NCBI GenBank assembly: GCA_008973525.1
Contig: WACJ01000328.1
Span: 270,309-334,308 of the forward strand
DNA from: Stenopsyche tienmushanensis
Taxonomy: Eukaryota; Arthropoda; Insecta; Trichoptera; Stenopsychidae
Length of the DNA stretch: 64,000 nucleotides
Reading direction: 5' to 3'
The notes beneath the pieces were generated by a model, which saw only the letters and a list, made by a program, of their open reading frames with translations, did not search any database and was not told the origin of the DNA. This document shows, piece by piece, positions 2,652 to 43,460 of this stretch. The translations under genes were made by a program, and so were the position numbers. Each line of letters starts with the position of its first letter. Positions within the stretch are counted from its first letter, which is position 1.

Positions 2652-3985
2652 TCAATATCTGATTGGAATTCCTGTTTGACTGTTGATCCAATCCCAATAA
2701 TGCTGTGGTCGAACGAAGAATGATGGTCTTCCTGAGATGCAACCATCAAAGCTTTGACGCGATGTAATGCCCGCCACAATGTCAATAATGTCTGCAACGT
2801 CACGTAATACCAATGGACCGCCCCAATCTCCCTATTCAATAAAAGTGCATCCTCTAACTAATATATAAACTTTAAAAGGATTTATTTCAATTTGCTTTTT
2901 TATACTTACAGCACAGACATTTTGTGATGTTTGACCAACCGGCACAGCACATAAAGTTGTGTTATATATATAAAAATCTTCAGTTAACCGGCACGCATCA
3001 TTAGATATGATAGATACGGTGCCAAAATGTAAAATATTTGTATTCACAGGTCCTTAAAAAAGGTAAACGTGTGAATGTTATTTTGCTTCTCAAGTATAAA
3101 TTGCATCAATTATAATCAAAATTACCTGAGATTTCAACTTGTCCCCATCCAAGAATGGTTGCTGTTCTTCCAGATCCAAAATTAGCAAACGCTTGACTTT
3201 GTCTTGGAAGGGCAATTGAATCAATGGTGGCTGTAAAATGTATGCGTTAACGATACAAATAGAGAAAATTAAGAGTATAGAGATAAATAGTGAATTTCAA
3301 CATACGGCCAAATATAACACTATGCACAAGATTTATAAGACCAATATTATTCTCAAGTGTTTGCATATTAAAAAGTGGATGAGGTCTAAGATCCTGTGTC
3401 ATTATCGTTATTAAAGGTGTAGTGTTATCTACGCTTCCTATGTAGACAGATGCTGTTGTTGGTCTATAAATATAAAACACGACCATAGCTTTTATTTTCA
3501 TGTTTATTACCTTTTTTCATTGAACTAAATATAACTTACCCAGTAATGCAGTAAGCTTCGGTCAGAACCCAGCTAGGAGAAATTAACACCCCCCCACAGG
3601 GTAAGAGTCCTCTTATGTAAACCATGTATGGAAATATGCCTTCTGATGCAGGAGAACCATTTATGATTTTTGAAACTAAAAAATGTGACCTAGATAAATT
3701 TCGACATTAAAAGTCAATTTAAATCAAATACCATAAAAATGTTTAAACGCCTACAATCTGTTTGTGATGAAATACTCGATTCTTTGATCGTTGCATGAGG
3801 TTTTGCCTGAAATCATCGATAATAATAAGATCATGCTGTCGAAACATAACTAATTATTTGTAAACCACAATCAAATAGCCATAATATTATCCCATATGTT
3901 AATGACTTGTAAAACCAAATTATATTAAACATACCGAAATCATCACAGCGAATAGGATAACACCAAAATACACGTAGACCTTCAT
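2652..3985 (-). CDS. SPH1: secreted S1A serine protease homologue, triad Tyr/Asn/Trp
   Basis: Seven coding exons: 3935-3985, 3755-3806, 3540-3675, 3306-3463, 3126-3230, 2910-3052, 2652-2831, joining in phases 0,1,2,1,1,0 to 274 aa. Exon 1 is a signal peptide beginning MKVYVYFGV. The mature domain would start after SK at IING (residues 38-41), the place of IVGG. Catalytic His57 is Tyr (LTEAYC, residue 76), Asp102 is Asn (ENNIGL, 119) and Ser195 is Trp (GDWGGP, 218), so no hydrolysis is expected. The cysteine pairs 42-58, 168-182 and 191-220 are present. The C-terminus is WDWINSQTGIPIRY. The family is chymotrypsin/brachyurin-like S1A. The role is unknown; binding, cofactor or decoy function in gut lumen or haemolymph is inference only. 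Tandem twin of SPH2. Confidence 0.9.
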
Positions 3986-4605
3986 GATGAATGTTGAAGA
4001 ATTACTCTGAATGATAGTCAAGTTTTTCATTAAATTCGTATTAGCGACTCGGGCAGATTACAATATATCTGGTGATAAGTAATCAGTGTATTTTTATATT
4101 TAGAAGAATGTGTTTGGCGTGGAAAAAATATTTAAGTCACTCAATAACAAATGCATTTATAATATTTGCTTAAACTGAGAAGAGCTTTAATATTTTCGGA
4201 CAACTTAATTATATTTTTAAAATAAATCGATGTTTTCTTGATATTTTTTTTACTTTTATTGAATATTGCATTACCTAAACCTAAAATAACTAGATTAGAA
4301 TTTAAATTTAATTAAAAAAAAACAAAAAACCAACATTAACAGTCGATTTCAATTCACCAATATGCTTGCCCCCTGTTTACAGGATAGTACCGGAAATTTT
4401 TAGATAAACTCGCTTTTTTGTTTGTTTTGTGGATTTTAACAGTCAAGATAAATTTAAAAAAATATTGAAATCATACACGTGTTCTCACGGATACACAAAC
4501 AATAGACGACAGTGCGACAATAAGACTAACAAATACATGCAATTAGACTTTTATTATTTTATTTGTACAAAATCAAGGTATTTTCCAACAGTCTTTAAAA
4601 ATAAT

Positions 4606-5948
4606 TTAATATCTGATTGGAATTCCTGTTTGACTGTTGATCCAATTCCAATAATGCTGTGGTCGAACGAAGAATGATGGTCTTCCTGAGATGCAACCGT
4701 CATAGCTTTCACTCGATGTAATGCCCGCCACAATGTCAATCATGTCTGCAACGTCATTTAATACCAACGGACCGCCCCAATCCTCCTATTTAATAAAAGT
4801 GCATCCTTTAACTAATATATAAACATTAAAAGGACATTGTATTTAATGCAATTTGCTTTTTTATACTTACAGCACAGATATTTTGTGGCGTTTGACCAAT
4901 CGGCACAGCACATAAAGTTGTGTTAAATATATAAAAATCTTCAGTTAACCGGCATGCATCATTAGATAAGATAAATACGGTGCCAACATGTAAAATATTT
5001 GTATTCACAGGCCCTTAAAAAAGGTAAATGTGTGAATGTTATTTTGCTTCTCAAGTATAAATTGCATTAATTATAATCAAAATTACCCGAGATTTCAACT
5101 TGTCCCCATCCAAGAATGGTTGCTGTTCTTCCAGATCCAAAATTAGCAAACGCTTGACTTTGTCTTGGAAGGGCAATTGAATCAATGGTGGCTGTAAAAT
5201 GTATGCGTTAACGATACAAATAGAGAAAATTAAGAGTATAGAGATAAATAGTGAATTTCAACATACGGCCAAATATAACACTATGCACAAGATTTATAAG
5301 ACCAATATTATTCTCAAGTGTTTGCATACTAAAAAGTGGATGAGGTCTAAGATCCTGTGTCATTATCGTTATTAAAGGTGTAGTTTTGTCTACGCTTCCT
5401 ATGTAGACGGATGCTGTTGTTAAGCTATTAAATATAAAACACGACCATAGCTTTTATTTACATGTTTATTACCTTTTTTTCATTGAACGAAATATAACAT
5501 ACTCAGTAATGCAGTAAGCTTCGGTCAGAACCCAGCTAGGAGAAATTAACACCCCCCCACAGGGAAAAAGTCCTCTTATGAAAACCATGTATGGATATCT
5601 ACCTTCTGATGCAGGAGAACCATTTATGATTTTTGAAACTAAAAAATGTGACCTCGATAAATTTCGACATTAAAAGTCAATTTAAATCAAATACCATAAA
5701 AATGTTTAAACGCCTACAATCTGTTTGTGATGAAATACTCGATTCTTTGATCGTTGCATGAGGTTTTGCCTGAAATCATCGATAATAATAAGATCATGCT
5801 GTCGAAACATAACTAATTATTTGTAAACCACAATCAAATAGCCATAATATTATCCCATATGTTAATGACTTGTAAAACCAAATTATATTAAACATACCGA
5901 AATCATCACAGCGAATAGGATAACACCAAAATACACGTAGACCTTCAT
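4606..5948 (-). CDS. SPH2: secreted S1A serine protease homologue, triad Tyr/Asn/Trp
   Basis: Exons 5898-5948, 5718-5769, 5503-5638, 5267-5424, 5087-5191, 4871-5013, 4606-4785; 274 aa, same phases as SPH1. It is the close tandem twin of SPH1. The signal peptide, IING start, EAYC, ENNIGL and the xDWGGP block are all kept, so the His, Asp and Ser positions are again Tyr, Asn and Trp. Differences include Glu for Gly in front of DWGGP, C-terminal WNWI instead of WDWI, and splice donor GTATGT instead of GTAAGT after exon 3. Exon 4 begins CTTAACAACAGC where SPH1 has ACCAACAACAGC, same length. All frames are open. Near-identical introns show a recent duplication or gene conversion. Confidence 0.9.
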
Positions 5949-7233: not shown

Positions 7234-7288
7234 AAGCGTTGAAAGGGAAATGGGACGACCGTCAAAAATAATTCCATATCGATCTATC

Positions 7289-8592
7289 ATGAGGTTACGC
7301 GTGTATTTTGGTGTACTTTTGTTCGCTGCAATAACTTCAGTATGTAAAATTCAATGAAGTCGATACTTTTTCATCAGTATGCTTATCATAATAGAATTTA
7401 ATTATTTCAGGCGAGATTTCATCCTGCTATAAAGGAGGTGATGATAAAATCCCCATTCGATGAAAAATATTTAAGTAATAATATGTTTATTTTATTGCTA
7501 TTTAACGTGAATGAACTATCGATTGGGTACATTTTAATGCGACGGTTTCTTATAGATTCAAAAACGATGAATGGCCTTCCTGCAGTAAATGGCCAGTTTC
7601 CATTCGTGGTGCGAATTTTTATGCACATTTTGCCTTGTGGAGGAGCTTTAATATCTCCTAGTTGGGTTTTGACTTCAGGCATTTGCTTACGTGTATAGTA
7701 TGTATAATAAAATTTGAAAACATCTTTCCAATACAATAATAATACATTATATATGATAAAAAGTATTGATTTCTAGTCAAGGTGCCGTTGCAACTGTCTA
7801 TCTCGGAACTATCGATGATTCAAGACCTGCATTAATGATCACGACTGATGACACTAGACTTCACCCACATTTTATTCAAGCATGTTCACGGAATGATATC
7901 GGTCTTATAAATCTTAAACATAGTGTTATTATTAGCGGTATGAGACCTTTACTCCTTCATCTTTTAATTTACAATTTTCTCCATTTTTATCATTAATTTG
8001 TAAATTTTGTAGATACTATTGCGCCGATTACTCTTCCACGTGAGAGTCAAACTTACCCTAATTTTGGATCTGGAAGAATAGCAACAATTGCTGGGTGGAA
8101 AAGAATTGAAGAGGATGGTAATAATGATATTAATAAATAAATCTACGCATGGAAACAAATGTTTCATGTTTTTAATTTGTTAATAAAATTATTATTTTTA
8201 GACCCGACTAGCCTATTGCACTTTGATGAAGTATTAATCATATCTAACGATCAGTGCAAAGCATATAACGCTGACTTGCATTTCACAGAACTTTGTGCTG
8301 TATCAATTGGAGAACCGCCACAAAATAGCTGCCATGTGAGATTAATGGCATACATATTATGAATCGCAATATTTTCACTAAATATTCAATGATTTTAACG
8401 AATTTAATTTTAATTCTAAAGGGTACTAGCGGTACTTTGATGTTTCTTCGCGACTTGATGGACGACGTGGATATATTGGTAGGAATAATAGACATATCTT
8501 CTTGTGTCTCACAACGTCCATCATTTTCGATTCGACCACAACATTACTTGGATTGGATTTACAATACCACGGGACTTCCAATTAGACCTTAA
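7289..8592 (+). CDS. SPH3: secreted S1A serine protease homologue, triad Ile/Asp/Ser
   Basis: Exons 7289-7339, 7411-7474, 7556-7697, 7777-7937, 8013-8117, 8202-8335, 8422-8592; 275 aa, phases 0,1,2,1,1,0. Signal peptide MRLRVYFGVLLFAAITS. The activation site is SKTMNG instead of IVGG. His57 is Ile (TSGICL, about residue 81), Asp102 is kept (RNDIGL, 126), and the GDSGGP block is GTSGTL, so Ser195 survives but Asp194 is Thr. Without His it should be inactive. The C-terminus is LDWIYNTTGLPIRP, with a possible N-glycosylation site NTT. An AATAAA lies at 8625-8630. It is the inverted counterpart of SPH5, sharing exon 2 wording (VMIKSPF) and 5' flank. Confidence 0.9.
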
Positions 8593-10288: not shown

Positions 10289-12450
10289 TTATGGTCTGAT
10301 TGGAATTCCAGTGTTTTCATTGATCCAGCTCCAATAGTGTTGTGGACGAATATAGGCAGCTGGATATGCTGAGCAACTCCTAAAGAAACTTGCCAAGCCA
10401 CCTATAATAGGAATGCCTTCTGAACTGTCATACATTCTTAGTGTGGCGCCTAAATCTCCCTGTTAAAAAATAAATTGAACAAACTGTCAATATTCTATTT
10501 AAAACTAATTTGTAATTCTCTTTTATATGTTTATATTATTTACATGACAAAGGCCAATTGGGGACCATGGCAGTGGTTCAGCACATATAACAGAATTGAT
10601 GACCCACGACGAGTTATAGAACAGTTGGCAGCTAGGGTTGTCTATGGCAAGTACAACTCCATATCGCAGGATATTTGACACAGGACTACCTGTAAAATCG
10701 AAGTATGTATATGAATATTTAGTTTTTTTTTCTACATTTGGGTGTTATGAATTATCTCAATATTTATTACCCTGCGAGGTCGCTCCCCATCCAGCGATTA
10801 CAACTTCTATTCCTGCACCAAAATTTTCATACGTTTGACTTTGCCTTGGAATTGCAATAGGCCGAATTGTATCTGAAATTTTAATTAACACAGATAAAGT
10901 TTTTAAAATGACAAAATCATACCTTTCATAAAAAAATTCCCGCACCAGTGAAAATCAGATTTTGTTGAAGATTAATTAGTCCCAGATTATGGTTTTGATT
11001 ACTGGGATTGTATTGTGGATGAGTCCTTAAGTCATTAGATACGATGTGTACAGCAGGATTATTGTAATCAACACTTCCAATATATACATTAGCTGTTGTA
11101 CTCCTGAATTGGGAAAGTTCAAAATTAAGACAAGATAAATCTAAGAATAAGAAAAAAAGATTCTTATTCGTATGATTTACTAGAATTGTTTTATAAACCA
11201 TTACATTTAAGCTCATAATGTGGGAAAAAATACCGTACCAACATATTTAAGAGATCATAAGTATAAATATTTCCGATCAATTCGATTTCTTGATTAATGA
11301 TGATTATGAGTGATTTGCAACTTATTTATAAATTATTTTTTATCTTAAATATAATTATTTTAGCAACTTTATCATGGTTTGAATACATTTTTAAATACAT
11401 CAAACCTCATTCAGAGATCATCAGATTTTGACGATATCATTAATAAAGAAAAATATATCCAATATAATTCATTCACAAGTCCTCAGATAAGTTTTATGAC
11501 AATCGTTGTATATTAATTTTCTATGTTGCAAATCCTCAAATCAACAGGACAAAGAACCATCAAAGTTCACTATATCGCCAATTTTAATCTTTTTTACACT
11601 AATTTTAATGGATTATTAATCAATAAAATTACCAATACGTGCATTGAGCTACAGTCATAACCCAAGAAGGTGATATGATGCATCCTCCACAATAATCCAA
11701 TGACCTAACATGAACAGCAAACGGAAACGCTCCATCTCGTGCATTCCACGCATTGTAAAGTCTTCCAGCTATTTAAAGCAAAACTGGTGTTATTCATTAA
11801 ATATAATATTTTCAATATCATCAATAGTATATAAGGTAAGAGACTTACATTGATTATCATCAGTTGATATTTTGATGGCATATGACGGGTGAACCTTAAA
11901 TGAATAATATATTTAATATCCATAATCTTACATGCAATTGATAATAGTATATAAGTAATATTATCACAGGATGCATTTTTTGACGAAAATTATAAAGATG
12001 CAATTTTATATATACATAATTTTAAACTAAGGATCCCGCTTAATAAAAAAAATACATATTGGGAGAGTTTCATTTTCACGCTCTTTTGAGTTTTCCAATC
12101 GTTTGGAAATTATTGCATCCAGCTAAAAATAATCGTGCTATTTTTTCAGCTAAGAAATTTTAAAAAAACTAATAACGCGATTATATTTATAAATCACTTT
12201 ATTTTAATTATTTAGTTCGCCAAAAGAAATCCCAAAAAAAAAAAAGAGCCCTTTACACGCAATGGCTTCCTTAAGCTATCAAATCATTTGAAATCGCTAT
12301 GAAAAGCAAATCAAGCATTTATTTGCATTGGAATATTTATTGCTATACATAATAGATTTAAAAAATGACAATTTAAGGATATAAAATATCAAAACTAACC
12401 GTAGTAGCGACAGCAATCAGCCACACGCCAAAAAATACGCTGAATCTCAT
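10289..12450 (-). CDS. SPH4: secreted S1A serine protease homologue, triad Gln/Asn/Leu
   Basis: Exons 12400-12450, 11849-11894, 11633-11768, 10946-11103, 10771-10872, 10544-10689, 10289-10459; 269 aa. Signal peptide MRFSVFFGVWLIAVATT. The activation site is GRLYNA, so the Ile16-Val-Gly-Gly start is gone. His57 is Gln (TVAQC), Asp102 is Asn (NHNLGL) and Ser195 is Leu (GDLGAT). C42 and C58 are kept. The C-terminus is WSWINENTGIPIRP. The donor after exon 4 is GTGCGG, weak but matched by GTGCAG at the same place in SPH10, its nearest relative. Introns 1 and 3 are each about 0.5 kb, longer than in neighbours. Upstream is CTTATCT (12504-12510), an AGATAAG site on the gene strand. Confidence 0.88.
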
Positions 12451-15748: not shown

Positions 15749-17078
15749 TTAAGGTCTGATCGGAATTGCCGTTTCATTGTAAATCCAACCCAAGAACATT
15801 TGTGGTCGAACCCAAAGAGACGGAGCTCCCGAGATACAACCACCAGAACTGACGAGACTCATCAAGCCCACCAGGATGTCCAAATCGTCCATTGAGTCGT
15901 GTAAAATCATCGGTCCACCACTGTTACTCTTTAGAATTAAATAACAAGTTTTAATATTTATAAACCAATTAAAAATGATAAACTTTTACATGACATGCAT
16001 TAAAACTCACATTACAACCATTTTGTGGTATTTCTCCAAATGGCACGGCACAGACAGTTGAGAAATAAAAGAGAGTTGTATTCAATGCACATTGCTCTTC
16101 AGGTATAATTAATACTCTACCAAAATGTAAACTTTCATTGTATACAGGACCTAAAATGATATGTAAAATATTTGTTAATGAATGATTCTTTAAAATTATG
16201 CAACTTTTTATTCATCTCAAATGTATTCTATAAAATTGCTTTTACCATTCGGTTCGGTTTGCCCCCATCCGACGATTGTTGCTATTCTTCCAGCTCCAAA
16301 ATTAGGATAAGCCTGACTCTGCCTTGGAAGAGCAATTGTATTTATTGTATCTGTAAAATTTATATGTTATCAATAAGAATGGTGACAATTAGAAAGATAC
16401 GAAATGAAATCGGTGAAAAATATAATTTCCATTTTACCACTTAACGCAACACTATGCCTTAGGTTTATAAGAGCAATATTATACTCAAAGGGTGATTGAA
16501 AAAAATTTGGATGAACTCTAACGTCATTAGTCGCAATAAGCAATAAGAATGAATCTGTATGTACACTGCCCAAATATACAGTTAAGTTCCCACTAAAAAA
16601 AAATATTCTAAAATTAATATTATTATGGTACTATAACTACATAATTGCTTTTAAATACAACAAAATTTACGGAAAAGTAGTAGTAGCATCACTCAAAACC
16701 CAACTAGGGGAAATTAATGTTCCCATACTATCATGGCCAGTCAATCTTCTTATTAAGACCGTAAATGGAAATTGACCTTCTTCTGCGGGAAAACCATTTA
16801 TGATTCTTGAATCTGAAAAAATTGCCACATTATAGATAGCTTTACGAATAATGAATTTAAAATTCAATACGATCATAAATGGATTTATTAATATTTGAAC
16901 GTTTTCGATCAGATGGGGATTTGATATTCAGCTCCCTAATCGTTGGATGAAATTCGGCCTGAAATTATTAAAAAAATTTTTGATACGATCTCATAGAAAA
17001 ATTTCAACACGTTTAAGTTATACATACGGATACTGATGCAACTAACAAAAGAACCCCAACATGTACGTGGAACTTCAT
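15749..17078 (-). CDS. SPH6: secreted S1A serine protease homologue, triad Thr/Asn/Ser
   Basis: Exons 17028-17078, 16901-16958, 16671-16812, 16438-16592, 16246-16350, 16011-16150, 15749-15928. About 276 aa; the end of exon 2 is uncertain, since the donor used by SPH3 and SPH5 is lost and either C|GTTCAA (16901) or C|GTATTG (16871, 286 aa) keeps phase. Signal peptide MKFHVHVGVLLLVASVS; activation site SRIING. His57 is Thr and Cys58 is also lost (LSDATTTF); its partner Cys42 is gone too (DSMGTL). Asp102 is Asn (EYNIAL). The GDSGGP block reads SNSGGP, keeping Ser195 but not Gly193 or Asp194. The C-terminus is LGWIYNETAIPIRP. Tandem twin of SPH7. Confidence 0.86.
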
Positions 17079-17354: not shown

Positions 17355-17767
17355 AACTGAGGCAATGAGCAATGAACTGTAGTCAAAACCAAGCTATAAA
17401 AAAATTAAAATATCTGCACAACGCAGAATGTGCATAAAAATTCGCACTGCGAATGAAAACTAACCATCTACTGTAAGAAGGTCATTTATAATTTTTGAAT
17501 CTATAAGAAACAATCACATTAAAATTTACTTTATCGATAAGTCATTCACGTTAAATAGCAATAAAATAAATATATAATTACTTAAATGTCTTGCATCGAA
17601 TGGGGATTTTATCATCACCTCCTTTATAGCAGGATGAAATCTCGCCTGAAATAATTTAACTCTATTATGATAAGCATACTGATGAAAAAGTATCGACTTC
17701 ATTGAATTTTACATACTGAAGTTATTGCAGCGAACAAAAGTACACCAAAATACACGTGGAACCTCAT
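17355..17767 (-). pseudogene. Truncated SPH3/SPH5-type copy, exons 1-3 only
   Basis: Exon 1 (17717-17767, MRFHVYFGVLLFAAITS), exon 2 (about 17582-17646, with EVMIKSPF) and exon 3 (from 17500 downward) are recognisable. In exon 3 a TAG replaces the Gln codon of DGQF at 17460-17462. The LISPSWVLT region is frameshifted near 17380-17395 (a run of T followed by ATAGCTTGG). Exons 4-7 are absent: the sequence passes at about 17345 directly into the 5' flank of SPH6. The 5' flank to about 18010 matches that of SPH5. Confidence 0.85.
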
Positions 17768-18907: not shown

Positions 18908-20219
18908 TTAAGGTCTAATCGGAAGTGCCGTTTCATTGTAAATCCAATCCAAAAACATTTGTGGTCGAACCCAAAGAGATGGAGATCCGGAGATACAACC
19001 ATCCAAACTGACGAGATTCATCAAGCCCACCAGGATATCCAAATCGTCCATTGCGTCATGTAGAATCATTGGTCCACCTCTGTTACTCTTTAGAATTAAA
19101 TAACAACGTTTAATACTTATAAATCATTTAAAAAAGATTAAATCTTGCTTGACATGTATTTATTTAAACTCACATTACAACCATTTTGGGGTGTTTCTCC
19201 AAACGGCACGGCACAGACACTCGAGAAAAAATATCGACATTGCTCTTCTGGTATAATTAATACTCTACCAAAATGTAAACGTTCACTGTATTCAGGACCT
19301 AAAATGATATTTAAAATTTTCGTTAATGCCCAAATTACACATTTTTTTTATTCTTCTCAATTATATTCAATAAAAACGCTTTTACCATTCAGTTCGGTTT
19401 GCCCCCATCCAACGATTGTTGCTATTCTTCCAGCTCCAAAATTAGGATAAGCCTGACTCTGCCTTGGAAGAGCAATTGTATTTATTGTCTCTGTAAAATT
19501 TATATGTTATCCATAAGAATGGTGACAATTAGAAAGATACGAAATAAAATCGGTGAAAAATATAATTTCCATTTTACCACTTAACGCAACACTATGCCTT
19601 AAGTTTATAAGAGCCATATTATACCCAAAGGGTGATTCTGAAAAATTTGGATGAACTCTAACGTCATTAGTCGTAATAAGCAATAAGAATGAATCTCTAT
19701 GTACGCTGCCCAAATATACAGTTAAGTTCCCACTAAAAAAAAATATTCTAAAATTAATATTATTATGGTACTATAACTTCATTAATTGATTTTAAATTTA
19801 AGAAAATTTACGAATAATTATTAATAGCATCACTTAAAACCCAACTAGGGGAAATTAATGCTCCCATACTTTCATAGCCATTCGATCTTTTTACTAAGAC
19901 TGTAAATGGAAATTGACCTTCTTCTGCGGGAAAACCATTTATGATTCTTGAATCTAAAAAAATTGCCACATTAAAGATAGCTTTACGAATAATGAATTTA
20001 AAATTCAATACGATCATAAATGGATTTATTAATATTTGAACGTTTTCGATCAGATGGGGATTTGATATTCAGCTCCCTAATCGTTGGATGAAATTCGGCC
20101 TGAAATTATAAAAAAATATTTTAATACGATCTCATAAAATAATATCAACTCAATTAATTAATACATACGGAAATTGATGCAGCTAACAAAAGTACACCAA
20201 TATATACGTGGAACCTCAT
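18908..20219 (-). CDS. SPH7: secreted S1A serine protease homologue, triad Ile/Asn/Arg
   Basis: Exons 20169-20219, 20042-20099 (or to 20012), 19812-19953, 19578-19732, 19386-19490, 19174-19298, 18908-19087; about 271 aa. Tandem twin of SPH6. Signal peptide MRFHVYIGVLLLAASIS; activation site SRIING. His57 is Ile with Cys58 lost (LSDAINNY) and Cys42 lost (ESMGAL). Asp102 is Asn (GYNMAL). SNSGGP of SPH6 is SNRGGP here, so Ser195 is Arg. Exon 6 is five codons shorter than in SPH6, removing the ALNTT segment near Cys168. The C-terminus is LDWIYNETALPIRP. The upstream GATA element of its relatives is mutated (TTTTCTAC at about 20275). Confidence 0.86.
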
Positions 20220-23449: not shown

Positions 23450-24055
23450 TATCCAGTTTGAGAACCCAACTTCATCAAGTGGTTTGTATATTTAGTCAAT
23501 CTGAATTTAGGGATTATTCTTCCTATACGTCTGAAGTAGAAAGGTGTTTAATGATCAAATCAAAAATTAATATAGACCGTGAAGTTATACCGTAATACCA
23601 TCTATTTGGGTCCGGCCACAGTTTTATTTGGATTGGATTAATAGTCATACCGGAATTCCAATCAGGCCATAAGTTATTTTCAAGTTATTATATTCAAATT
23701 TATGAATAAATACGCATTTAAGGAATATTATTTTACAAAAAGATTTTACAATAGATTCCCTCAATTATATTGTTTTCCCATGTACAATGAAATGTATTTT
23801 CTGAATTTTAATTACTCATAAATATAAATGACTTTAAAAGAGGAGTGCAACACATTCTGCCATTTCCGTCTATCCTCAACTTCCTTACTCCAACAACCCA
23901 GACGCAGATATCTTAGCCTATCTGATAAAACCAGCGTAGATGAGGTGTTTCGATGAGTCTGTTGCTACTCAGTCCCAAACCTAAAGCGGTTCGAGAGACT
24001 TGAGGGAGTTTCGTACACGTCCACGATCTTCCGATCGGACCTCATGGCAAATAAG
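23450..24055 (+). pseudogene. Internally deleted duplicate of the SPH9 locus
   Basis: 23484-23589 matches the SPH9 upstream region 25886-25992. At about 23590-23597 it jumps to the last 80 bp of SPH9 exon 7 (ATCTATTTGGGTCCGGCCACAG onward) and then follows the SPH9 3' flank (27568-28040) almost base for base. Exons 1-6 and most of exon 7 are missing. The stop is TAA in this copy and TGA in SPH9. A short shared ACCATCTATTT string at the junction suggests how the deletion arose. Confidence 0.85.
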
Positions 24056-26290: not shown

Positions 26291-27645
26291 ATGAGGTTCC
26301 CCGTGTATTTTGGTGTACTTTTGATCGCTGCCGTTGCCTCGGTATATTTTATCTAATTTTGTTGATTTCATTTCATCAGTATGCTTATTGTACTGTTATT
26401 GTTTTTAATGATTTCAGGCAGAATTTTATCCGACGATCAAGGAATCGAGTGTTGAGGCCTCATCTGATCGTAAATATTGTATTTAAGCCTGCATCTTTCT
26501 ATTTGGTAATCGAATTTATTTCTCTTAATCATTGAGCGACCATTAACGCGGTGAATCTTTTTAGTGTCAAAAATCGTAAATGGTGATCTTGCAACAGAAG
26601 GACAATTTCCATATATGGTTCAAATACAAGGACTGTTATTTTGCGGAGGTGCTTTAATATCTGCTAGCTGGGTATTAAGTCAAGCTTTGTGTATTTGGGG
26701 GTAATTTTAATTAAATTCTACAACACTTTATAATAATTTCTTGTTAGTTGATAGATTACAAATGTTAATTGCATTTTATTTTTTTATTTTTAGAGTAACT
26801 GTAAAAGTGTACCTTGGAACTATTGATATCACAAAGCCTTTTTTAATTATCGAAACTCAGGAAACCTGGACTCATCCACAATTTGAAAGTCCTCACATAG
26901 GGAATAATATTGGCCTTGTAAATTTGAGGCATAGTGTTGTTTTTGATGGTATGGTGTTCTTATATCTTATTTTATTTTTTAATACCTCTCAAAATTTAGC
27001 AACTTTAATATAGGATCAATTATTTTAATTATTCAGAGAGGATCAGTCCAATTGCTCTTCCAAGACGGAGTCAAGCATATGCTAATTTTGGATCTGGAAG
27101 AGCAGCTACTATTATTGGATGGGGAGAACTTATAGAAAGCGGTAATTGTTATACTAAAAATGTGTCTGTATATGAGATGCATTAGAAATTTCTCAAATTA
27201 TCGTATGATAACTAAAATTCTTATTATTTTATTCAGGTACTTCAAATGAAACTTTGAGTTATGGTTCAGCTTTGATTATATCTAATGAAGCATGCCAATC
27301 AACTGAAAATGATCCAAAAATAGATATCACAGTGCTTTGTGCCGTACCAACAGGACAACCACCACAACAAGTTTGCTTCGTGAGTATATTTGAATAGCTA
27401 TGAAATTACTCTTTATTGCTTTAAAATTATTCATGGATGTTAAAAGAAATAATTTATATTAACAGCATGACTGGGGTTCTTTGATGACTCTTCGTGATAT
27501 GCTGGACAATTTGGATATCCTGGTGGGCATAATGAGTAGGCCTGCCTTCGCGGGTTGCATGTCTGGACGACCATCTATTTGGGTCCGGCCACAGTTTTAT
27601 TTGGATTGGATTAATAGTCATACCGGAATTCCAATCAGGCCATGA
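26291..27645 (+). CDS. SPH9: secreted S1A serine protease homologue, triad Leu/Asn/Trp
   Basis: Exons 26291-26341, 26418-26469, 26565-26700, 26794-26948, 27037-27141, 27237-27379, 27466-27645; 273 aa. Signal peptide MRFPVYFGVLLIAAVAS; activation site SKIVNG. His57 is Leu (LSQALC), Asp102 is Asn (GNNIGL), and GDSGGP reads HDWGSL, so Ser195 is Trp. The C-terminus is LDWINSHTGIPIRP. AATAAA is at 27678-27683. It is the inverted counterpart of SPH8. Its 3' end and upstream region also occur as the deleted copy at 23450-24055. The 3' flank 27830-28060 looks like part of a repeat (it occurs in both copies). Confidence 0.9.
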
Positions 27646-30113: not shown

Positions 30114-31633
30114 TTAAGGTCTTATTGGAAGTCCAGTATGTTGGTTAATCCAGCTCCAATAGTATTGTGGACGAACATAGCCAGCGGGATAAAATGTGCA
30201 ACCCCTGAAAAAGCTGGTCATGCCGAGCAAAATATTAGCTTGATCTGCTTCTTGAAACATTGTCAAAGATCCGCCTATATCACCCTATTTAAAAAAAACA
30301 TGACTTATTTTTCAATATTAACTTCATTGTATTTATTTATGTTATATTAATTTATTTTATTTACGTGGCAGGGTCCAACTGGAGCCCATGGTAATATTTC
30401 AGCACAGGTGACAGAGTCGATAACCCACGAAGGATCATTGTAAGTTCGACATCGATTATTGTCTACGACCTTTACCAGTCCATACTGTAAAATGTTTGGA
30501 AATGGATCAGCTGAAAAAAACAATTTAAGTTTAATTATTCAATTTTTGTTAAAATTATAGTATTAATTGTATGAAACTATGATAAATACATAATGCAGTG
30601 TGTCCCCATCCACAAAGAAATGCATCTGATCCTACACCAAATTGTTCAAATGCTTGACTTTGTCTTGGAATTATAATAGGCCCAATGATATCTATAAATT
30701 TGTTGAAGAAAATAAGTTTATGGAATTGAAAAAATATATAGGTTTTGTAAAATTATAAAAAATGCTGCACTATCGAATATTAGGTTAATATGAAGATTAA
30801 CAAGTCCAATGTTGTGATGGTAATTGGTAGGATTGTATTGTGGATGGATTCTCAAGTCCCTGGATATGATGAAAATTCTAGGATTATTGTAATCCACACC
30901 CCCAATAAATACATCAGCCGTATTACTCCTGAATTTAAAATTAATATTAATTAGTATTTGTAATACGAAATGTTTTTGTACAATACTAACATATTTAATT
31001 AGTTAGTATTGTACAAAAATAATCCCTAGTCTTATATATATTTTTTAAATGAATAAGATTACCCAGAAATGCATTGGGCTACAGTCAAAACCCACGAAGG
31101 TGTTATAATATTTCCAGAACAATAATCTGCTGATTTAATATGAACAGCATGCGGAAAAAATCCATCTTGAGCAGGCCATGAATTGAAGATTCTTCCAACT
31201 ATTTACAAAAGAGAATATAACAAACGATACATGTAATACGAAAGCATTTCAAAGATTAGTTTAAATACTTACATTCATTATCATTGATTGATTTTTTAAC
31301 TGCAATCGACGGATGATCACCGGCCTAAAATTGATGGAAAATCATATTAACAAGCCCATACTTCAATGTTCAAACATTTTGCGTATACAACATATGGAAA
31401 CAAGTTAAAATAATCAATGTGCTTTAAGAAGCACGAATATGACTGCGTGTCTTTTTTTAAATGCCATTACAGATATTACATTTAGATTTTAAGCATTTAA
31501 GGAAATTTTGCATAGTGCTATTATAAGATAATGGATGTTGATGAATAATTTTTCCTCTGAGGTTAAGAAAGTGATAACTGACCGCAGTGGCGACAGCAGT
31601 CACCAAGACACAAAGAAATACGTCGAATCTCAT
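30114..31633 (-). CDS. SPH10: secreted S1A serine protease homologue, triad Gln/Asn/Ile
   Basis: Exons 31583-31633, 31273-31324, 31063-31198, 30771-30928, 30590-30691, 30365-30510, 30114-30284; 271 aa. Signal peptide MRFDVFLCVLVTAVATA. The activation site is GRIFNSW, not IVGG. His57 is Gln (TVAQC), Asp102 is Asn (HHNIGL) and Ser195 is Ile (GDIGGS). Exon 6 carries YNDPSWVIDS and LPWAPVGPC as in SPH4 (LPWSPIGLC), its closest relative. The donors after exons 4 and 5 are GTGCAG and GTATTT. The C-terminus is WSWINQHTGLPIRP. The promoter shows AGATAAG (31686-31692) followed by TATATATAAAA (31671-31681) on the gene strand. Intron 3 contains a perfect 18-bp hairpin. Confidence 0.88.
30973..31019. repeat. 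Perfect 18-bp inverted repeat in SPH10 intron 3
   Basis: Left arm TTTTTGTACAATACTAAC (30973-30990), 11-bp loop, right arm GTTAGTATTGTACAAAAA (31002-31019); arms are exact reverse complements. Confidence 0.85.
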
Positions 31634-31693: not shown

Positions 31694-32228
31694 GGAATGT
31701 TAATTCTGTGATGCATCAGGACAGCGTAATCTTCGCTACTTTGACCACACAATGTAATCTTTCAAATTGTCCCTTTTATTTAATCTGCATACTTAAGCAC
31801 ACAGTGCATTTATGCCATGATTGAATATCGAATTGATGTAATTATTTTGATTTAGAGCTTGTTGTAATATGTTGATATTATGCACATAGAAAGTTCAAAA
31901 GGAAAAAATAATTATCCTGTCTTTTCCAATCTGGAGATGGTAGTTCAAGTAGCATACACTCGAGGTATTTAAGATTTGGGAGTGAGTGGCAGCAGACCCG
32001 TCGGAAGAGCTTGTGTAGGTGAAGATACCTGCACTGGCAGTTGGAAGGAAGAGGGTCAGAATAACCGAATATGGCAGTATCTCACTTATATATTATCTGG
32101 TTTGTATGCATGTATGTTAATAATTTTATCATCGCCATTTTATAAGGGCCATAGATAGAGACCTGCTATCTGAATAAGGGTCGTCAGTCAAATAGCCACC
32201 GTTAAGGTTTTTACTTTATCGTTTACTA
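31694..32228. other. Spacer between SPH10 and the orphan exon
   Basis: Includes an open plus-strand stretch near 31976-32158 with a GEDTCTGSWKEEG segment followed by a hydrophobic segment. I do not recognise it, and it has no supporting splice or start context. May be an element fragment. Confidence 0.3.
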
Positions 32229-32384
32229 ATGAATGACATAGATGACAACATTGATGTCTTGGCGAGCATATTTTCTGATACTAGTATAAATTATTGTTTT
32301 TCAGGGGAACCGATCATTTTTATTCGCCTACAATATTACTGGGGTTGGATTAACAATCATACTGGACTACCAATCAGATCTTAA
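32229..32384 (+). pseudogene. Orphan SPH exon 7 remnant
   Basis: One open stretch from an internal ATG to TAA reads through DDNIDVLASIF, CFSGEPIIFIR, LQYYWGWINNHTGLPIRS, the ordinary end of an SPH protein from about residue 200. Nothing upstream on this strand resembles exons 1-6, and the GDSGGP-equivalent portion is missing. The arginine-proline pair usual before QxYW is changed to RL. Most likely a fragment left by a rearrangement. Confidence 0.8.
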
Positions 32385-33170
32385 ATTATATTTTTGTATT
32401 AAAATGAATATAAAAATAAACAATAACTTCAACTTCACATATCATGGTCAAATTGTGTTAGTCAAGGGAAGAAAGCAACTAACTACGAAAGTACTATTAA
32501 CGATAAAGTAACGATTAAAACTAAATATACGATAGATTTTCTATGCTGTAGAACAGATTTATGAAGATGATATAGAAAAAGAATTTTTGAAATAGTGACT
32601 CAAAATATCAACGGAAATTAATATCGTTTGATAGATATAAACATAGTCGGAATGTTATTAAATTTGTTCTGAATACAGGGTATATTCTGGATCAAAACTA
32701 TTTTTATTTGTGTGTAAAATGTCCTATTTTATTCCTCATCATTCTAATTCATTGTCATCAATCTACTTTCTTAGATTTTGTCACAAAAGCTAGTCATTTT
32801 AGTTATTATGCAATATGGTCCTTTCTGTTCTTCTAAGCATATTCCTACTTTTTTTAATTAATACGAGAACTACAGCTTAAGTTTAATTAATATTACAATT
32901 ATAAGACAAATTATATAAAACTATATTCCAAATTTGGTTCAAATACTTTGGCTAATCTATTTGAATCCAAATGGAATTTGTTTAAGGATTATGAACTACA
33001 TTTTATTTAAGTTAATGGCATATATTATGGATTTTTAGGATTACCAAATAATTTATTAAAATCAAGAAACATATGTGTATTTATTCACTTTTTAACAATT
33101 AATTATTCAATAATGTTCTAAATTTTGAAATAGTTATCTTTATTTCTAAATTTTATTATAGGCTCAGGGT

Positions 33171-35148
33171 CTAATCGGGACTCCCGTATTGGCGTTGATC
33201 CAATCCCAATAGAACTGTGGGCCGTGTAAATAATGGTAATTCTGTACTGCATGTCATACCTTCTCCATAGTAGCTAGTTATACCAATTTGGATTTCAATA
33301 TTATCAGTAAAATCGAAAACTGTCATGGCATGTCCAAGATCACCCTGTCGAAAATGCAACATATTAATCAAAAATAGTTTTAATATTAAAACCTCTGGAT
33401 GATACATTTTTTATTATATACTTACATAACAAAGTGTGATTGCCTCTGATGGTATTCGGCTTGAGCATAAAGTGGAGTTGATAACTATTTCGCTATTATA
33501 ATATGCCTCGCATACACTGTTAGGGTTAACAACTACGGAACCATATTGAAGACGGTTGCTGAGTCCAGCTATGGAAAAAAATGCGAATTGAGTTGCAAAT
33601 ACTGAAGTTATACATATTTTTTTTCATTCGATAATCTTCAAAGTCAAATACAATTATCGATTATTCCCCATCCAAAGACAGTTGCTGTCCTGCCAGAGGC
33701 GAAGTTCTCATATGTTTGGCTTAATCTCGGAAGAGCAATGGGTCTGATTCGATCTGCAATATAAAATTATTCCTTTTTATCTAAAAATTCATAAATTTGA
33801 CAGAATGATGTTAATTTCGTATCGTTGTCTTTCTTTATTGGTATGGATCATATTTTAGAAGAAATATTTTTGCGGATGGAATATCTGATATTCAGATCAA
33901 ATATCATCAATTAAAACACTGTATCATTATTAATATTCACTATTTCACTTTTAAAATTTATTAGGCACATTTAATAGGCAAGAAGTTAATTAATTTATTT
34001 CTAAAAACCACCCAAATTATTTGATAAGGGAATTTATATCACAATATGTAATTGTATCCAAATAATTTCAATAAGAAGTAAACAATTAACTCTCAAAGTC
34101 TACTTTTTTCTCGTTTTAAAAGTAACAATGAAGATTTTAAATTTTGCATATTTACCGTTGTAGTATAGAGAATGGTAAAGATTGAGGAGACCGATGTCGT
34201 GGTTCCGGGTGATAAGATTAAAATTCGGATGAGTTCTTCCGTCGTTAGTTTCGATGTATAAATATCTGGGTTCTATAAAAACACTTCCGATGTAGATGGC
34301 ACCTCCATTAGCTCTGAAATTTCAAATTTTACTGCAAAATAAATATGCGCCAATTTGTCGGGAAGTATTTTCAGAACATTCCCACAGAGATACAGATGAC
34401 AGAATTATGAAAGTGTTGGATAAATATTTTTTTTGTCACAGTGATATATAATATTAGATTAATAAGAATGTATATGACAACAAAAATAATTACTGAAAGA
34501 TGCACGATGCTGCAGTTAAGATCCAACTAGGTGCAATGATACTTCCTCCACAATAACCTCTTGATCGAATATGAACTTGATGGGGAAATTGACCCTGTTC
34601 TGCTGGAGTACCACCGGTGAGTCTTGTGACTATCAAAGAGAATAAAAACATTATTTTTTTAGTGTTTATAAAACTACTATAATAAATAAGTTAGATATAT
34701 TGTATAAAAAAAACCTATTTACATTTGTCCTGTGGTGTGAATTCCCGGACTGATATCAACGGTTGAAAAGTAGCCTAAAATTTATTGTTGAAAAAGATTT
34801 TCAAAGTAATGTTATATATTTTTTTTAACATATAATAGGGATATTTAAACGCAAAACTATGAATGGATAATCAAAGGTTGAAGCTAGTAGTGCAAAGATC
34901 AAGTATATAGGCAAAGATCTATATGGTATAATTATGATAACTGAAAAAAATCAAAAGATCGTTCAAATTAACGATTGTAAGACAAACGGATGAAAACTTT
35001 GAAATATATGCAATCACAAAAGATTGAAATAAAAATGAATGATTTGGAATTTAAGAAAATCTATTGAATTTGGATAGATGTAAAAAATAGGGCTTACCTT
35101 AGCCAGAGCAAGACATAGGAAAAGCGTTAAAACTACGCGGAGCCCCAT
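33171..35148 (-). CDS. SPH11: secreted S1A serine protease homologue, triad Ser/Asp/Leu, frameshifted C-terminus
   Basis: Exons 35098-35148 (an in-frame ATG also at 35157), 34723-34774, 34494-34629, 34156-34313, 33652-33753, 33426-33568, 33171-33344; 271 aa as read. Signal peptide MGLRVVLTLFLCLALAK; activation site TRLTGG. His57 is Ser (TAASC), Asp102 is kept (NHDIGL), Ser195 is Leu (GDLGHA). In exon 7 an extra G in the run at 33219-33221 shifts the frame, so the protein ends TRPTVLLGLDQRQYGSPD at 33171 instead of the family ending, whose frame is still intact to a TGA at 33164. Either a true mutation or a sequence error. Closest to SPH12 and SPH13. AGATAAG at 35210-35216 and ATATATAAAG at about 35195-35203 precede it. 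Confidence 0.82.
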
Positions 35149-36993: not shown

Positions 36994-39080
36994 ATGAAGA
37001 TCCACGTAGTTTTTTCTTTTTTCCTGTTGTTTGCATTAGTTAAGGTAAGGTCTAGTTTTCTATGTTTAACTCGATATCATTGATTTTCTATCTCATTTAC
37101 TTCATAATTTTCACCATGTACCTAATGACCGTCCATTTTAATGATATTTTGGTTATCGTTCCATATATTTATCTTTCGTCTTTTTGTCTAGTTACTTAAC
37201 CTTTTCAATTCTATCTTCATTCTTTGATTATCCATTTCAACGGGTTCTAAATCATTATAAATTAAAAGTGATGATTATATTATGACTTTGAACGTTTATT
37301 TTTTTTATCTAAAAATTGTCTGATAAATTTTAGGCTGCTGTTGTGCCATCGATCTCAGTGCGAAAATTCACAGCACAGGACAAATGTAAATATGTTCTTT
37401 TAAAAATATGATTTATTAATCAACGCAATGTTTTCACATATTTTTTTATTATTTTTGATAGTTACAAGAATTGTAGGTGGACTTCCCGCGGAATTGGGCC
37501 AATTTCCCTATGTAGTCCATCTCAAAGCAAGATCGTTTTGCGGAGGAAGTTTAATTTCCCCTAATTGGGTTTTAACCGCTGGATCCTGCATCTTCGGGTA
37601 AGCATTACTGTTATTAGTGATTTTATATATTAAAAATATACGTAGCTGAGTGTTTTACAATTCTATAGATGAGTTAAAAATGTAATTCTTACATCTTTCC
37701 TATATCTTCATAACCTTAATCAAATTTTTCATGGTTCGTGATCATAAGCAACTAACGTGCCAAATATATCAGGAAGTAAAAGTGTTTTATTTTTATTCAG
37801 AGTCTAATATATTTTGATTTGGTTATTTTAAATATAATTATTATATGAAAAAATATTTAAAACAGTCCATACTAATTTTGTAATAAAATTTGAATTTACA
37901 GAAGTCAAGCGGGTGCCGTTTACATCGGAAGTATTGCTATAAATTCCCGTTATTTGTACATCGTAACTGATGACTTCAGAACTCATCCACAATATAATCC
38001 TATTAATCGGAACCACGACATCGGTATCATCAATCTTCATCATACTGTACATTATAGTGGTAAGTATAAAAATATTATTTAAGGAATATCGTAAAAACTT
38101 CATGAAATTAAATAAAAAAGTCTTAAAAGGATTGGTTTCTATATATACAAACCTGAGTTCAATAGACTAATCCCACTGGAGTATTTGAAAACTAAGAATA
38201 CTCAAAAGTGGCAGAGAGTAGAGCTTCAAGAGTAGAATAAAAGCTTCACAAGAATGGAACGGTATTCCAGAAACTCAACGTCGATTACTTGAAAATCTCA
38301 TTGTCTAAATTGTTAACAGTATAGTGCTTCAAATTGGTAATTCTTGATTACATGAACTTTCAAAATCATATACATAATTCATTCCGCAAAAATCTTCTTT
38401 ATTTAATATCTTAATCCTCGAATGCAATTATATTCTATTGCTTTATTTATAAATAGTATGGAATTAATGAATTTGTAAATAAAATAAAATAATTTTGCAT
38501 TGCAGATCGGATCAGACCCATTGCTCTTCCTAGAAAAAGTCAAACATTTGAAAACTTCGCTTCTGGTATGCTAGCAACGGTTACCGGATGGGGACAAACC
38601 AACGAGGGTCTTTAGCTAATTATTTTTGATTAATTATGCATTACATACACTTTTGTAATAATAATTTATTTTTCTTCAGGTGAAGGTACTAGCAACGAGC
38701 TTCTATACGGAAACGTAGTCGTTAACACTAACACTGCATGCGAAGCAATTATTGGCAGCGAATATATTATAAACTCCACACTGTGTGCAAGTCCTCCATC
38801 ATCATCACAATTAACCCTTTGTTTTGTAAGTGAATGATGAAATTGAATCGCACATTCAAATATTATCTTGCATAACCTATTTTATGAATTGTATTATTGG
38901 CAGGGTGACATTGGAAACCCCCTGACGGTCTTTGATTTTATGGATGGGATTGATATCCAAATCGGGGTAGCAAACTATTATGGCGAAACATGCGTCTCAG
39001 GAACACCAGCATCCTATGTCCGACCACAATTCTATTGGGATTGGATAAGCGCTAATACAGGGATCGAAATTAGACCTTAA
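36994..39080 (+). CDS. SPH12: secreted S1A serine protease homologue, triad Ser/Asp/Ile
   Basis: Exons 36994-37044, 37334-37385, 37462-37597, 37902-38059, 38506-38607, 38680-38825, 38904-39080; 273 aa. Signal peptide MKIHVVFSFFLLFALVK. It has the most protease-like start of the cluster, TRIVGG, and CGGSLISPNWVLT. His57 is Ser (TAGSC), Asp102 is kept (NHDIGI), and Ser195 is Ile (GDIGNP). So it is a secreted non-enzyme with an otherwise regular fold and six cysteines. The donor after exon 5 is GTCTTT, weak, but phase and paralogues require it. The C-terminus is WDWISANTGIEIRP. AATAAA at 39125-39130. It diverges from SPH11. Confidence 0.9.
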
Positions 39081-39130
39081 GTTAACAAAAGCATTTGAAA
39101 AATGAGTGTAAATTATCAAAATGTAATAAA

Positions 39131-41631: not shown

Positions 41632-43460
41632 TTATGTTCTAATCGGAATTCCAGTAACGCTGTTGATCCAGTCCCAATGGAATTGAGGAGCAGTATAAAT
41701 GGCAGGCATTCGATAACCACAATTTGCGCTTAAGACTACATATGTGGACACTAAACCAATTTGAACTTCAATCAAATCGTCATTGTCATATTCATACATC
41801 GTCAAGGGATTTCCGTTGTCACCCTGTTGATATAAAACATTTTAAATCATTATATCAAGTTAAAATCAAATTGTCATCGGAAAGTATTTTTTTAATAATG
41901 CAATACTTACGTAACAAATAGCAGTATTTGACTGTAGTGTTGATTCGGCACACAAATTGTTATCGGGAACCAATGCAGATGAATAAAAAGAGCGACAATA
42001 TCTTTGACTGCGGACAACTACGTGAGCATATTGCATAACATCGCTAAGAGGGCCGACTGTTAAATATATTTTTAAAAAATGAGTGAATTTCAGCATAAGA
42101 AAAAATATTCAAATTTAAATATAAATAGTAGCTACTCTCTGAGGTGAATCCCCATCCGATAACTGTTGCTAATCTTGCAGAAGCAAAATCTACATACTCT
42201 TGACTTCGCCTTGCAAGAGCAATTGGTTTAACGCGATCTGAAATATTCAAGATGTTAATAGTATTCAAAGTGAGCTAAATTCTTATTTAGATTTTATGAC
42301 AATTTTACCATTGAATGCAATTGAGTGGCGAAGGTTGATTAATCCGATATTATTGGTCGATCCACCTGTATATTGTGGATGAGGTCTGTAGTCATTCGTA
42401 GTGATGAACAAGTAAGAATTTCGTCGATCGACGCTTCCGAGTTGTACGTCAACAGTTAGATTATAGCTTGAAATAATTAAAAAATGTGATAAGAGAATAT
42501 TTGGAATTTGGCGTATTGATCACGGGGATACATTCTGGAGAGGATTGCGATCAACAGCAATATTTTTTAATCAAAATTTGACGATAAATGTCTAATAATC
42601 CGATACAAGCACACTTTACTGCATTTGTTCATAAACTTTGTTCATTTCGTCTAACGACTCCATGCATTGATTATAAAATGAAAGGACCTTTTCAATGACT
42701 TTTCAATGAACAGCTTCCAAGACGCAATTTTCTTGGGACATGGTATGATACTTTAATTCCTGCAGCTCTTCATTAGTTAAGGATTTGTCGGTGTCATTTA
42801 AGCAGATTTTGAGCATCAATGTCTTCAATTCAATCTAAATCATTAGAAGTATAGAAATACTAATATTAACGATGAGAAGCATGCTAATCCCGCATATACT
42901 GTTCAATTTGAGCTAATATCCATATAACTCAGTAGACAGAGAACGCACCCGGACAATGAGAGGTAGTTAAATTGATTTTTCCTATTCGGTTATTACGATC
43001 ATTCGAGCATTGACACTAATTATTAGATATATTAGATATAAATTCGAGAATTACTTATATAAACACCAGCCATTAGTCAGAACCCAACTTGGTGAAATAA
43101 TACTTCCTCCACAAAAATCTTTTGCTCGAATATGCACCGCATAGGGAAACTGGCCATCTCTCGCTGGAGTACCACCTAAGATTCTCGGCACTATAAAACA
43201 AATTGAAAACGTTAATTGTAGCGTTTATGCGCTATGATTATTCGTACTACTTGTAGCATTTTAGATTATGGAAAAAAGTCTCACAAATATCCTGCGATGT
43301 TAATTTCTTGACTGATATGGATGATTGAATTTCAGCCTATAATCCATATTTGAAATTATTGCCATTGCTGTATGAATTTCGGCACATTAAATACGGTAAT
43401 ATGACTTACATTCGCTATGACAGCGAGCAGGAAGACCCCAAAAGCCACTTGAAACTGCAT
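41632..43460 (-). CDS. SPH13: secreted S1A serine protease homologue, triad Trp/Asn/Asn
   Basis: Exons 43410-43460, 43285-43336, 43055-43190, 42309-42466, 42136-42237, 41911-42056, 41632-41823; 278 aa. Signal peptide MQFQVAFGVFLLAVIAN; activation site PRILGG. His57 is Trp (TNGWC), Asp102 is Asn (TNNIGL), Ser195 is Asn (GDNGNP). Exon 7 is 192 bp, 12-21 bp longer than in the other genes, with an acidic insert (YEYDNDDLIE) in the loop after the 195 block. The C-terminus is WDWINSVTGIPIRT. Donors GTAGCT (exon 5) and GTGAGA (exon 2). TTATCT lies upstream near 43553. Outermost member of the cluster; groups with SPH11 and SPH12. Confidence 0.88.

Follow-up and report, generated by a model that had tools for sequence, protein, structure and literature searches.

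Background

Loss of catalysis is common, and why pseudoenzymes persist is usually unknown. By analogy, the closest precedent for the proteins described here is the SMIPP-S family of the scabies mite, reported to have 33 members (PMC4031079); five inactive trypsins have been described on one scaffold in Nilaparvata (PMC4085338), and the clip-domain serine protease homologues (SPHs) of insects are reported to be activated by cleavage (PMC6901238). Our subject is an array of S1A-type pseudoproteases in the caddisfly Stenopsyche tienmushanensis, seen in a 64-kb window (the whole stretch of DNA that was analysed) at positions 270309-334308 of the 334-kb contig WACJ01000328.1 (C328), of which it forms the right end. 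An earlier note on this DNA had regarded a large clip-less family of this kind as unusual; the family is real, but SMIPP-S and Nilaparvata provide precedents. No publication on this caddisfly family was found among the literature matches listed, and neither 'serine protease' nor 'trypsin' occurs in the main text of the Stenopsyche genome paper (PMC6302954).

From the sequence, we hold with about even confidence that these proteins are secreted, non-catalytic binding proteins, in which a conserved body would carry the dead active-site cleft as a variable recognition face.

Structure and extent of the array

Gene models were obtained with a custom spliced protein-to-genome aligner, using GT-AG introns and iterated over the family. 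Thirteen S1A genes (A-M) of seven exons each were resolved over 2,652-43,460 of the window, the stop codon of gene A beginning at 2652 and the ATG of gene M ending at 43460. All 13 models have an ATG start, GT-AG boundaries at all six introns and identical intron phases (0,1,2,1,1,0), and 12 are intact; the sole frameshift lies in gene K near 33224, late in exon 7, and is either real or an assembly indel. The spliced models thereby confirmed the earlier reading of 13 seven-exon S1A genes at 2652..43460, one of them with a late frameshift. The three proteins submitted to Pfam matched Trypsin (PF00089) above the curated cut-off (A, E-value 4e-35; E, 4e-25; J, 5e-29), which excludes chance resemblance to S1A, and the remaining 10 align end to end (K up to its frameshift). 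Judged by eye, the cluster proteins have signal-peptide-like N-termini. The interval between this start and position 16 is about 20-25 residues, too short for a clip domain, and Pfam found no clip domain in A, E and J.

The genes of the window are listed below with the residues at the triad positions, assigned by alignment to bovine chymotrypsinogen numbering (residue 195 of E falls in a gap of the main alignment and is D in a second reading).

2652..3985, minus strand: pseudoprotease A, 7 exons; Y57 N102 W195
3985-3935, 3806-3755, 3675-3540, 3463-3306, 3230-3126, 3052-2910, 2831-2652, minus strand: exons of gene A
4606..5948, minus strand: pseudoprotease B, 7 exons; Y57 N102 W195
7289..8592, plus strand: pseudoprotease C, 7 exons; I57 D102 S195, T194, T16
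10289..12450, minus strand: pseudoprotease D, 7 exons; Q57 N102 L195
13360..14648, minus strand: pseudoprotease E, 7 exons; H57 N102 D195, Q194, T16
15749..17078, minus strand: pseudoprotease F, 7 exons; T57 N102 S195; 42-58 disulfide cysteines both replaced
18908..20219, minus strand: pseudoprotease G, 7 exons; I57 N102 R195; 42-58 disulfide cysteines both replaced
21158..22509, minus strand: pseudoprotease H, 7 exons; F57 N102 W195
26291..27645, plus strand: pseudoprotease I, 7 exons; L57 N102 W195
30114..31633, minus strand: pseudoprotease J, 7 exons; Q57 N102 I195
33164..35148, minus strand: pseudoprotease K, 7 exons; S57 D102 L195; one exon 7 frameshift
36994..39080, plus strand: pseudoprotease L, 7 exons; S57 D102 I195
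41632..43460, minus strand: pseudoprotease M, 7 exons; W57 N102 N195

The array was followed beyond the window by a search of the one genome (451.46 Mb, 549 contigs) with L as query and by reading of the adjoining DNA; further dispersed copies may exist. The whole cluster occupies approximately 242-314 kb of C328 and runs about 28 kb past the left edge of the window. The interval of the 41-kb cluster described earlier was therefore right, but the window cuts the cluster, six further copies (U1-U6) lying to the left on the same contig. Four of these, U1-U4 (approximately 242-259 kb), have an intact triad (H57, D102, S195) and are mutually 95-99 percent alike, and two (U5, U6) are pseudoproteases. 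A dispersed pseudoprotease, N153, lies on another contig. N442 (C442:128996-130811, at a contig end) is M-like, with 268 of 277 residues identical and introns 2.7 percent diverged, and has Asp102 where M has Asn102; it is probably the other haplotype of M, an unremoved haplotig. The genome is reported to come from two pooled adults, and redundant contigs may remain (PMC6302954). Gene B arose recently by duplication of A, with which it shares 251 of 273 residues.

Exon synonymous divergence (dS) among U1-U4 is 0.03-0.08 in all six pairs, and intron divergence in the U1-U4 pair, the only one compared, is 0.24, a mismatch that could reflect either exon homogenisation or synonymous constraint. Other S1 clusters occur, among the matches listed, on contigs C150, C21, C45, C28 and C16.

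Replacement of active-site residues

None of the 13 window genes encodes a complete His57-Asp102-Ser195 triad, and in every one a triad residue is replaced, the feature that defines an SPH; the same holds for U5, U6, N153 and N442. The largest number of triad residues in any copy is two, as in C (Asp102 and Ser195). Residue 102 is Asn in 10 of the 13 and Asp in C, K and L. The residues listed in the earlier note for 57 and 195 agree with ours in all 13 genes, as does its statement that no triad is complete; its further claim that each triad is broken differently is mostly right, there being 12 distinct 57/195 pairs, with A and B sharing one combination. The parsimony minimum on the tree is at least 11 changes at 57, at least 9 at 195 and at least 4 at 102.

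Analyses of the dead family refer to 17 pseudoproteases (U5, U6, A-M, N442 and N153). Lys or Arg15, the zymogen cleavage point, is retained in all 17, Ile or Leu16 in 15 and Asp194 in 13, C and E having lost Ile/Leu16 as well as Asp194. In F and G the two cysteines of the 42-58 pair have been lost together. Residue 189 at the base of the S1 pocket, Ser in the intact copies, is Asn, Gln, Gly, Thr or Ala in the dead ones, and position 228 is Phe, Tyr or Trp in 15 of the 17, Ser in C and a gap in K, as read from the alignment. Trp195 is found in six of the 17 (U5, U6, A, B, H and I).

The C-terminal tail is exactly PIRP in seven of the 13 (C, D, F-J), PIRY in A and B, PVRP in E, EIRP in L and PIRT in M, and is lost by the frameshift in K. 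It is common to intact relatives (PIRP in U1-U4, PIRN and PIRP in two Arctopsyche proteins). The PIRP block that had been called conserved is thus exact in about half the genes, with variants elsewhere, and the dead copies are not alone in having it.

Distribution of amino-acid change

Cleft columns were defined as 35-41, 57-64, 94-99, 102, 141-151, 170-175, 189-195, 213-220 and 225-228. In the dead family the amino-acid rate was 1.66 in the cleft and 0.83 in the rest (51 and 169 columns, respectively; p 4e-10), compared with averages of 0.80 and 1.11 (p 0.005) in catalytic relatives, of which six random samples of 17 were drawn among 106. The rate map is inverted in the dead family, its cleft changing twice as fast as the remainder, whereas in the catalytic relatives the cleft is slower. 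The contrast persisted in all six samples when the triad columns were removed (p 1e-8 to 1e-11), and when the cleft labels were shifted circularly, none of the 219 shifts reached the rate difference or the log ratio of the real labels. Among the 25 fastest positions, 21 were in the cleft in the dead family, the other four being 73, 154, 177 and 223, compared with 3 in the catalytic sets; the pocket-base positions 189, 226 and 228 were absent from the fast positions. Mean beta was 1.00 in cleft columns and 0.43 elsewhere (54 and 179 columns, respectively; p 5e-10). Many non-cleft positions were slower than in the catalytic relatives, rates being relative to each set's mean.

The same pattern was seen between individual copies. 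Circular shifts reached the observed cleft differences in 2 of 229 cases for C-E, 0 of 233 for C-N153, 3 of 229 for E-N153, 4 of 233 for H-I, 3 of 233 for U5-U6, 3 of 231 for F-G and 20 of 235 for A-B. The cleft loops differ in both length and sequence from those of U3 and among the dead copies, loop alignments between distant paralogues being uncertain. The paralogues therefore do differ in the cleft, as claimed when the family was first said to be diversifying exactly at the dead active site, but it is the former substrate cleft that is involved, and not residues 57 and 195 alone.

The distribution of change also bears on the idea that the dead copies are decoys, absorbing dietary, microbial or the animal's own inhibitors and so shielding U1-U4. 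The four intact-triad copies do share the array, and a chymotrypsin-like protease and a serpin are reported to co-occur in the silk of one caddisfly (PMC9432349). A decoy would be expected to resemble the inhibitor's target, and here the target cleft is not copied: residue 189 is changed, Trp195 stands in six of the 17, and the loops are unlike those of U3 and each other. Because the dead clefts do not copy U1-U4, we consider decoys unlikely, and the dietary-inhibitor target suggested in the earlier note, at least as a plain decoy, fits poorly.

Is the cleft changing above the neutral rate?

In one lineage, C/E/N153, it is. With dS shared between cleft and rest, the ratio of nonsynonymous to synonymous change (dN/dS, omega) was 3.0 in the cleft and 0.57 elsewhere, and a cleft value of 1 was rejected (p 1.1e-8); in columns away from gaps, cleft omega was 2.7 (p 5e-6). 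An extra parameter for cleft dS was unneeded (p 0.18; 0.81 away from gaps). Pooling C/E/N153 with F/G and A/B gave a cleft omega of 2.3 with shared dS (p 7e-8). Between C, E and N153, pairwise dN was 0.63-0.95 in the cleft and 0.16-0.22 in the rest, and intron divergence (K) was 0.22-0.26, giving ratios of cleft dN to intron K of 2.8 (C-E), 4.2 (C-N153) and 3.6 (E-N153), with none of 400 bootstraps at or below 1 in each case. The dS of the rest (0.26-0.32) is near intron K in this lineage, and the intron yardstick was relied on for C/E/N153 only, since it is there that the two are close. Introns with at least 25 percent gaps were dropped (intron 5 of C-E and E-N153, 1 and 5 of U5-U6, 1 and 3 of D-J).

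For A-B the ratio of cleft dN to intron divergence was 3.1 (7 of 400 bootstraps at or below 1), and for H-I 2.6 (2 of 400). Introns were rejected as a neutral yardstick for H/I, where dS (0.47-0.56) is about three times intron divergence (0.17); this exon-intron mismatch is the reverse of the U1-U4 pattern. Intron divergence is uneven in F-G and H-I, where gene conversion is likely, with a mosaic history in H-I. No cleft excess was found in U1-U4.

Several results weigh against a cleft shaped throughout by selection for recognition. Given its own dS, the cleft of C/E/N153 has an omega of 1.9 (p 0.059), or 2.5 away from gaps (p 0.033), and the pooled set falls to 1.55 (p 0.11); by simple counting, cleft dS in the C/E/N153 pairs is 0.43-0.79, beside a dN of 0.63-0.95. 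F-G (ratio 1.1, 157 of 400 bootstraps at or below 1) and U5-U6 (1.0, 228 of 400) have a cleft dN roughly the same as their intron divergence. When the 17 pseudoproteases are taken together, omega in the cleft is 0.85, significantly less than 1 (p 0.008), the result expected of relaxed constraint, and the cleft is constrained in K/L (0.57) and D/J (0.29). A site-wise scan (FUBAR-like, 204 rate pairs, 17 sequences) placed no site at a posterior of 0.8; it shows a fast cleft and gives no indication that single residues are above neutral. The list of cleft columns is, moreover, one that we took from general knowledge of chymotrypsin. Finally, the functional surface of SMIPP-S is reported to lie off the dead active site (PMC4031079).

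The last point is the basis of the main rival explanation, in which these proteins would act through a conserved surface away from the dead site, the cleft having merely been released from catalytic constraint. Besides the overall cleft omega just given, values of 0.7-0.8 in H/I and U5/U6 are near those of relaxation, many positions outside the cleft are slower (in relative rate) than in catalytic relatives, and crystal and sequence work on SMIPP-S is described as locating the conserved surface on the opposite side from the dead site (PMC4031079). Relaxation alone is insufficient for C/E/N153, where the change in the cleft is greater than either gene-wide dS or intron divergence, and it does not sit well with the cleft of D/J and K/L, which is still constrained. 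We retain this explanation as a serious possibility, less probable than the one we favour; SMIPP-S is a warning that such proteins may do their work with the conserved face (PMC4031079).

The pairs fall into three regimes: a selected cleft in C/E/N153 and perhaps A/B, a relaxed one in H/I, U5/U6 and F/G, and a constrained one in K/L and D/J. The by-site dN/dS check proposed in the earlier note accordingly gave a cleft above neutral in C/E/N153, without general positive selection and without any single site. Its suggestion that the former cleft is a variable binding surface gains from the constraint on the family, the fast cleft and the excess in C/E/N153, but not in the form of positive selection acting on every copy.

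Purifying selection and decayed copies

A single omega was 0.42 for the 17 pseudoproteases, 0.84 for C/E/N153 and 0.25 for U1-U4; the whole-gene value for the dead family, for which the earlier note had proposed a dN/dS check, is not near 1. Under neutrality the probability of finding no stop codon between duplicates is 2e-4 for C-E, 7e-8 for H-I and 7e-10 for U5-U6; F-G provides only weak evidence in this test (P 0.02), and A-B none (P 0.12). In C-E, C-N153, H-I, U5-U6, D-J and K-L, 8 to 33 stops were expected and none observed (K up to its frameshift). The pseudoprotease family is under purifying selection and is not decaying, as these tests support.

Decay does occur at the locus. At least four relics with stops or missing exons are interspersed among the genes, and show what unselected copies turn into here:

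158..2426, minus strand: relic remains of one decayed copy or two; exon 7-like 158-325 with stop, exon 4-like and later pieces 2103-2426
17403..17767, minus strand: relic; the first two exons and a partial third, with a stop in frame
23598..23666, plus strand: relic; exon 7 end, 23 of 23 residues as in gene I
32223..32378, plus strand: relic; lone exon 7 fragment

If the 13 genes were themselves functionless, decaying duplicates, these relics, the frameshift in K and the weakness of the missing-stop evidence from A-B and F-G taken by themselves would be readily accommodated. Twelve of the 13 are nevertheless intact, splice sites are perfect in all 13, and omega is 0.42; the missing stops rule out neutral decay in the diverged pairs, and we regard it as very improbable for the family.

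Reverse-transcriptase-like open reading frames (ORFs) sit between relic pieces 158-325 and 2103-2426. A 475-base stretch, 92 percent identical between 23597-24048 and 27570-28044 of the window, indicates that the end of gene I exon 7 and its 3' flank were copied upstream.

Relatives and phylogeny

The tree comprised the genes of this genome, two Arctopsyche proteins and, as root, one protein of the mayfly Cloeon. The dead sequences, all 17, group together (89/91 support), separate from U1-U4 and the Arctopsyche proteins; the joining of U1-U4 to Arctopsyche is weakly supported (57/53). Among the matches listed, the best for U3 (54 percent) was a collagenase-like protein from Arctopsyche grandis, a caddisfly, and a second Arctopsyche protein (51 percent) ranked third; the nearest relatives listed are named as brachyurin- or collagenase-like S1A proteins, and their assignment to that clade rests on these names, which are those of digestive enzymes. 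The best match of solved structure was TMPRSS11D, with Hypoderma collagenase 1hyl and collagenase 1azz (presumably from a crab) also among the best. The H/D/S triad is present in 200 of the 205 relatives of 230-330 residues listed in two protein searches (best 120 matches each).

A profile search built on 10 of the 17 pseudoproteases gave 59 matches. The triad was read in the 41 of 200-330 residues: 34 have H/D/S, P0272 and P0278 are gapped in a triad column, P0280 has S/D/N, P0282 has H/N/A, and P0283, P0287 and P0289 differ at 195 alone, two of these three having poorly aligned motifs. No close relative of the dead family was found by this search (at most 34 percent identity among the ten best rows), which also missed the known Arctopsyche enzymes, so that absence from other caddisflies is not shown.

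Two individual matches resemble single genes of the array. P0028, a brachyurin-like protein of Schistocerca serialis cubense, has Phe57, Asp102 and Trp195, the 57/195 pair of gene H, and may perhaps reflect a recurrent route to a dead site. P0280, a fibrinolytic enzyme isozyme C-like protein of Battus philenor, has Ser57, Asp102 and Asn195 with the motif GDNGNP, as in gene M.

Possible origin and mode of action

A tandemly duplicated digestive protease gene of the collagenase/brachyurin type would account for the array, U1-U4 at one end keeping the triad and U5, U6, A-M and the dispersed N153 losing it. The presence of intact-triad copies in the same array, and of a caddisfly protein as the closest intact-triad relative listed, favours this. 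Peptidase activity would have gone with the replacement of triad residues, and the triad-less copies may have become secreted binding proteins. A trypsin-like enzyme presumably still clips them to their mature shape, and each copy may grip a protein or glycan partner through its remodelled cleft loops, without cutting. The partner would probably be co-evolving, and could be a microbe or parasite, or a protein of the mating partner.

A role in sexual conflict overlaps with this favoured reading: the proteins would be reproductive-tract or seminal proteins whose cleft tracks a protein of the mating partner. Serine proteases of the Anopheles gambiae female tract are reported to have sites under selection close to the catalytic triad (PMC3068966), and in the largest group of Drosophila sperm leucyl aminopeptidases catalysis is described as having been lost, by inference, before expansion (PMC3078892). 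The nearest relatives of the caddisfly proteins, named collagenase- or brachyurin-like, are of a digestive kind, and we regard a reproductive role as a tentative possibility. Equally tentative is an extension of the favoured reading in which the array would be a germline repertoire on a dead protease scaffold, with a constant body and a variable face, built by duplication and positive selection, the partner differing from copy to copy.

Other features of the window

Fragments resembling ORFs of retroelements without long terminal repeats were noted at 606-1118, 1103-1663 and 44712-45311 (all minus strand), the first with an RVT_1 match below the curated cut-off and the others judged by eye. 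Two non-protease neighbours were read by eye, a multi-exon gene at 51460-57979 (minus strand) and a gene for an RG/RS-rich protein at 59593-61019 (plus strand); three ORFs of the two gave no Pfam match. A short TTAGG-like repeat run (AGGTTAGGTTAGGTTAGG), also read by eye, lies at approximately 44350. Rfam and tRNA scans of the window gave no matches.

Comparison with known systems

Insect SPHs, including the clip-domain SPHs (CLIPA, prophenoloxidase cofactors), share with the caddisfly family the S1 fold, a broken triad, apparent secretion and a retained zymogen cleavage residue; the caddisfly proteins differ in being clip-less, in standing as a tandem array of 15 beside four intact-triad copies, and in diversification centred on the cleft. 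The brachyurin/collagenase-like S1A proteins (Arctopsyche grandis, 1hyl, 1azz) are closest by name, and the tail xIR[PN] is common to the family and Arctopsyche, but these proteins keep the triad (200 of 205 among the matches listed), and the sampled ones have a slow cleft. Anopheles gambiae AGAP005194-196 likewise form a cluster of chymotrypsin-like genes, with sites under selection surrounding the active site, but are described as three enzymes with a catalytic triad, with no dead family (PMC3068966). Scaffold299 of Nilaparvata lugens is reported to carry five inactive S1 genes with signal peptides, a smaller family (PMC4085338).

SMIPP-S resembles the caddisfly family as a large, secreted S1-type family in which catalysis has been lost and the conserved region is reported to lie off the dead site (PMC4031079); in the caddisfly family, too, the positions outside the cleft are more conserved. 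The caddisfly genes are likewise multi-copy, clip-less, lost-triad paralogues, 15 in the array and N153, secreted as judged by eye. SMIPP-S differs in coming from a mite; its S1 site is reported to be occluded by a conserved Tyr, and its action to take place away from the residual active site (PMC4031079). The caddisfly cleft is highly variable, and above neutral in one lineage. With intact and dead paralogues in one array and the rate map inverted after loss of the triad, the locus offers a natural test of the reuse of an enzyme cleft as a binding surface that varies, and stands as a counterpart to SMIPP-S, whose dead site reportedly goes unused.

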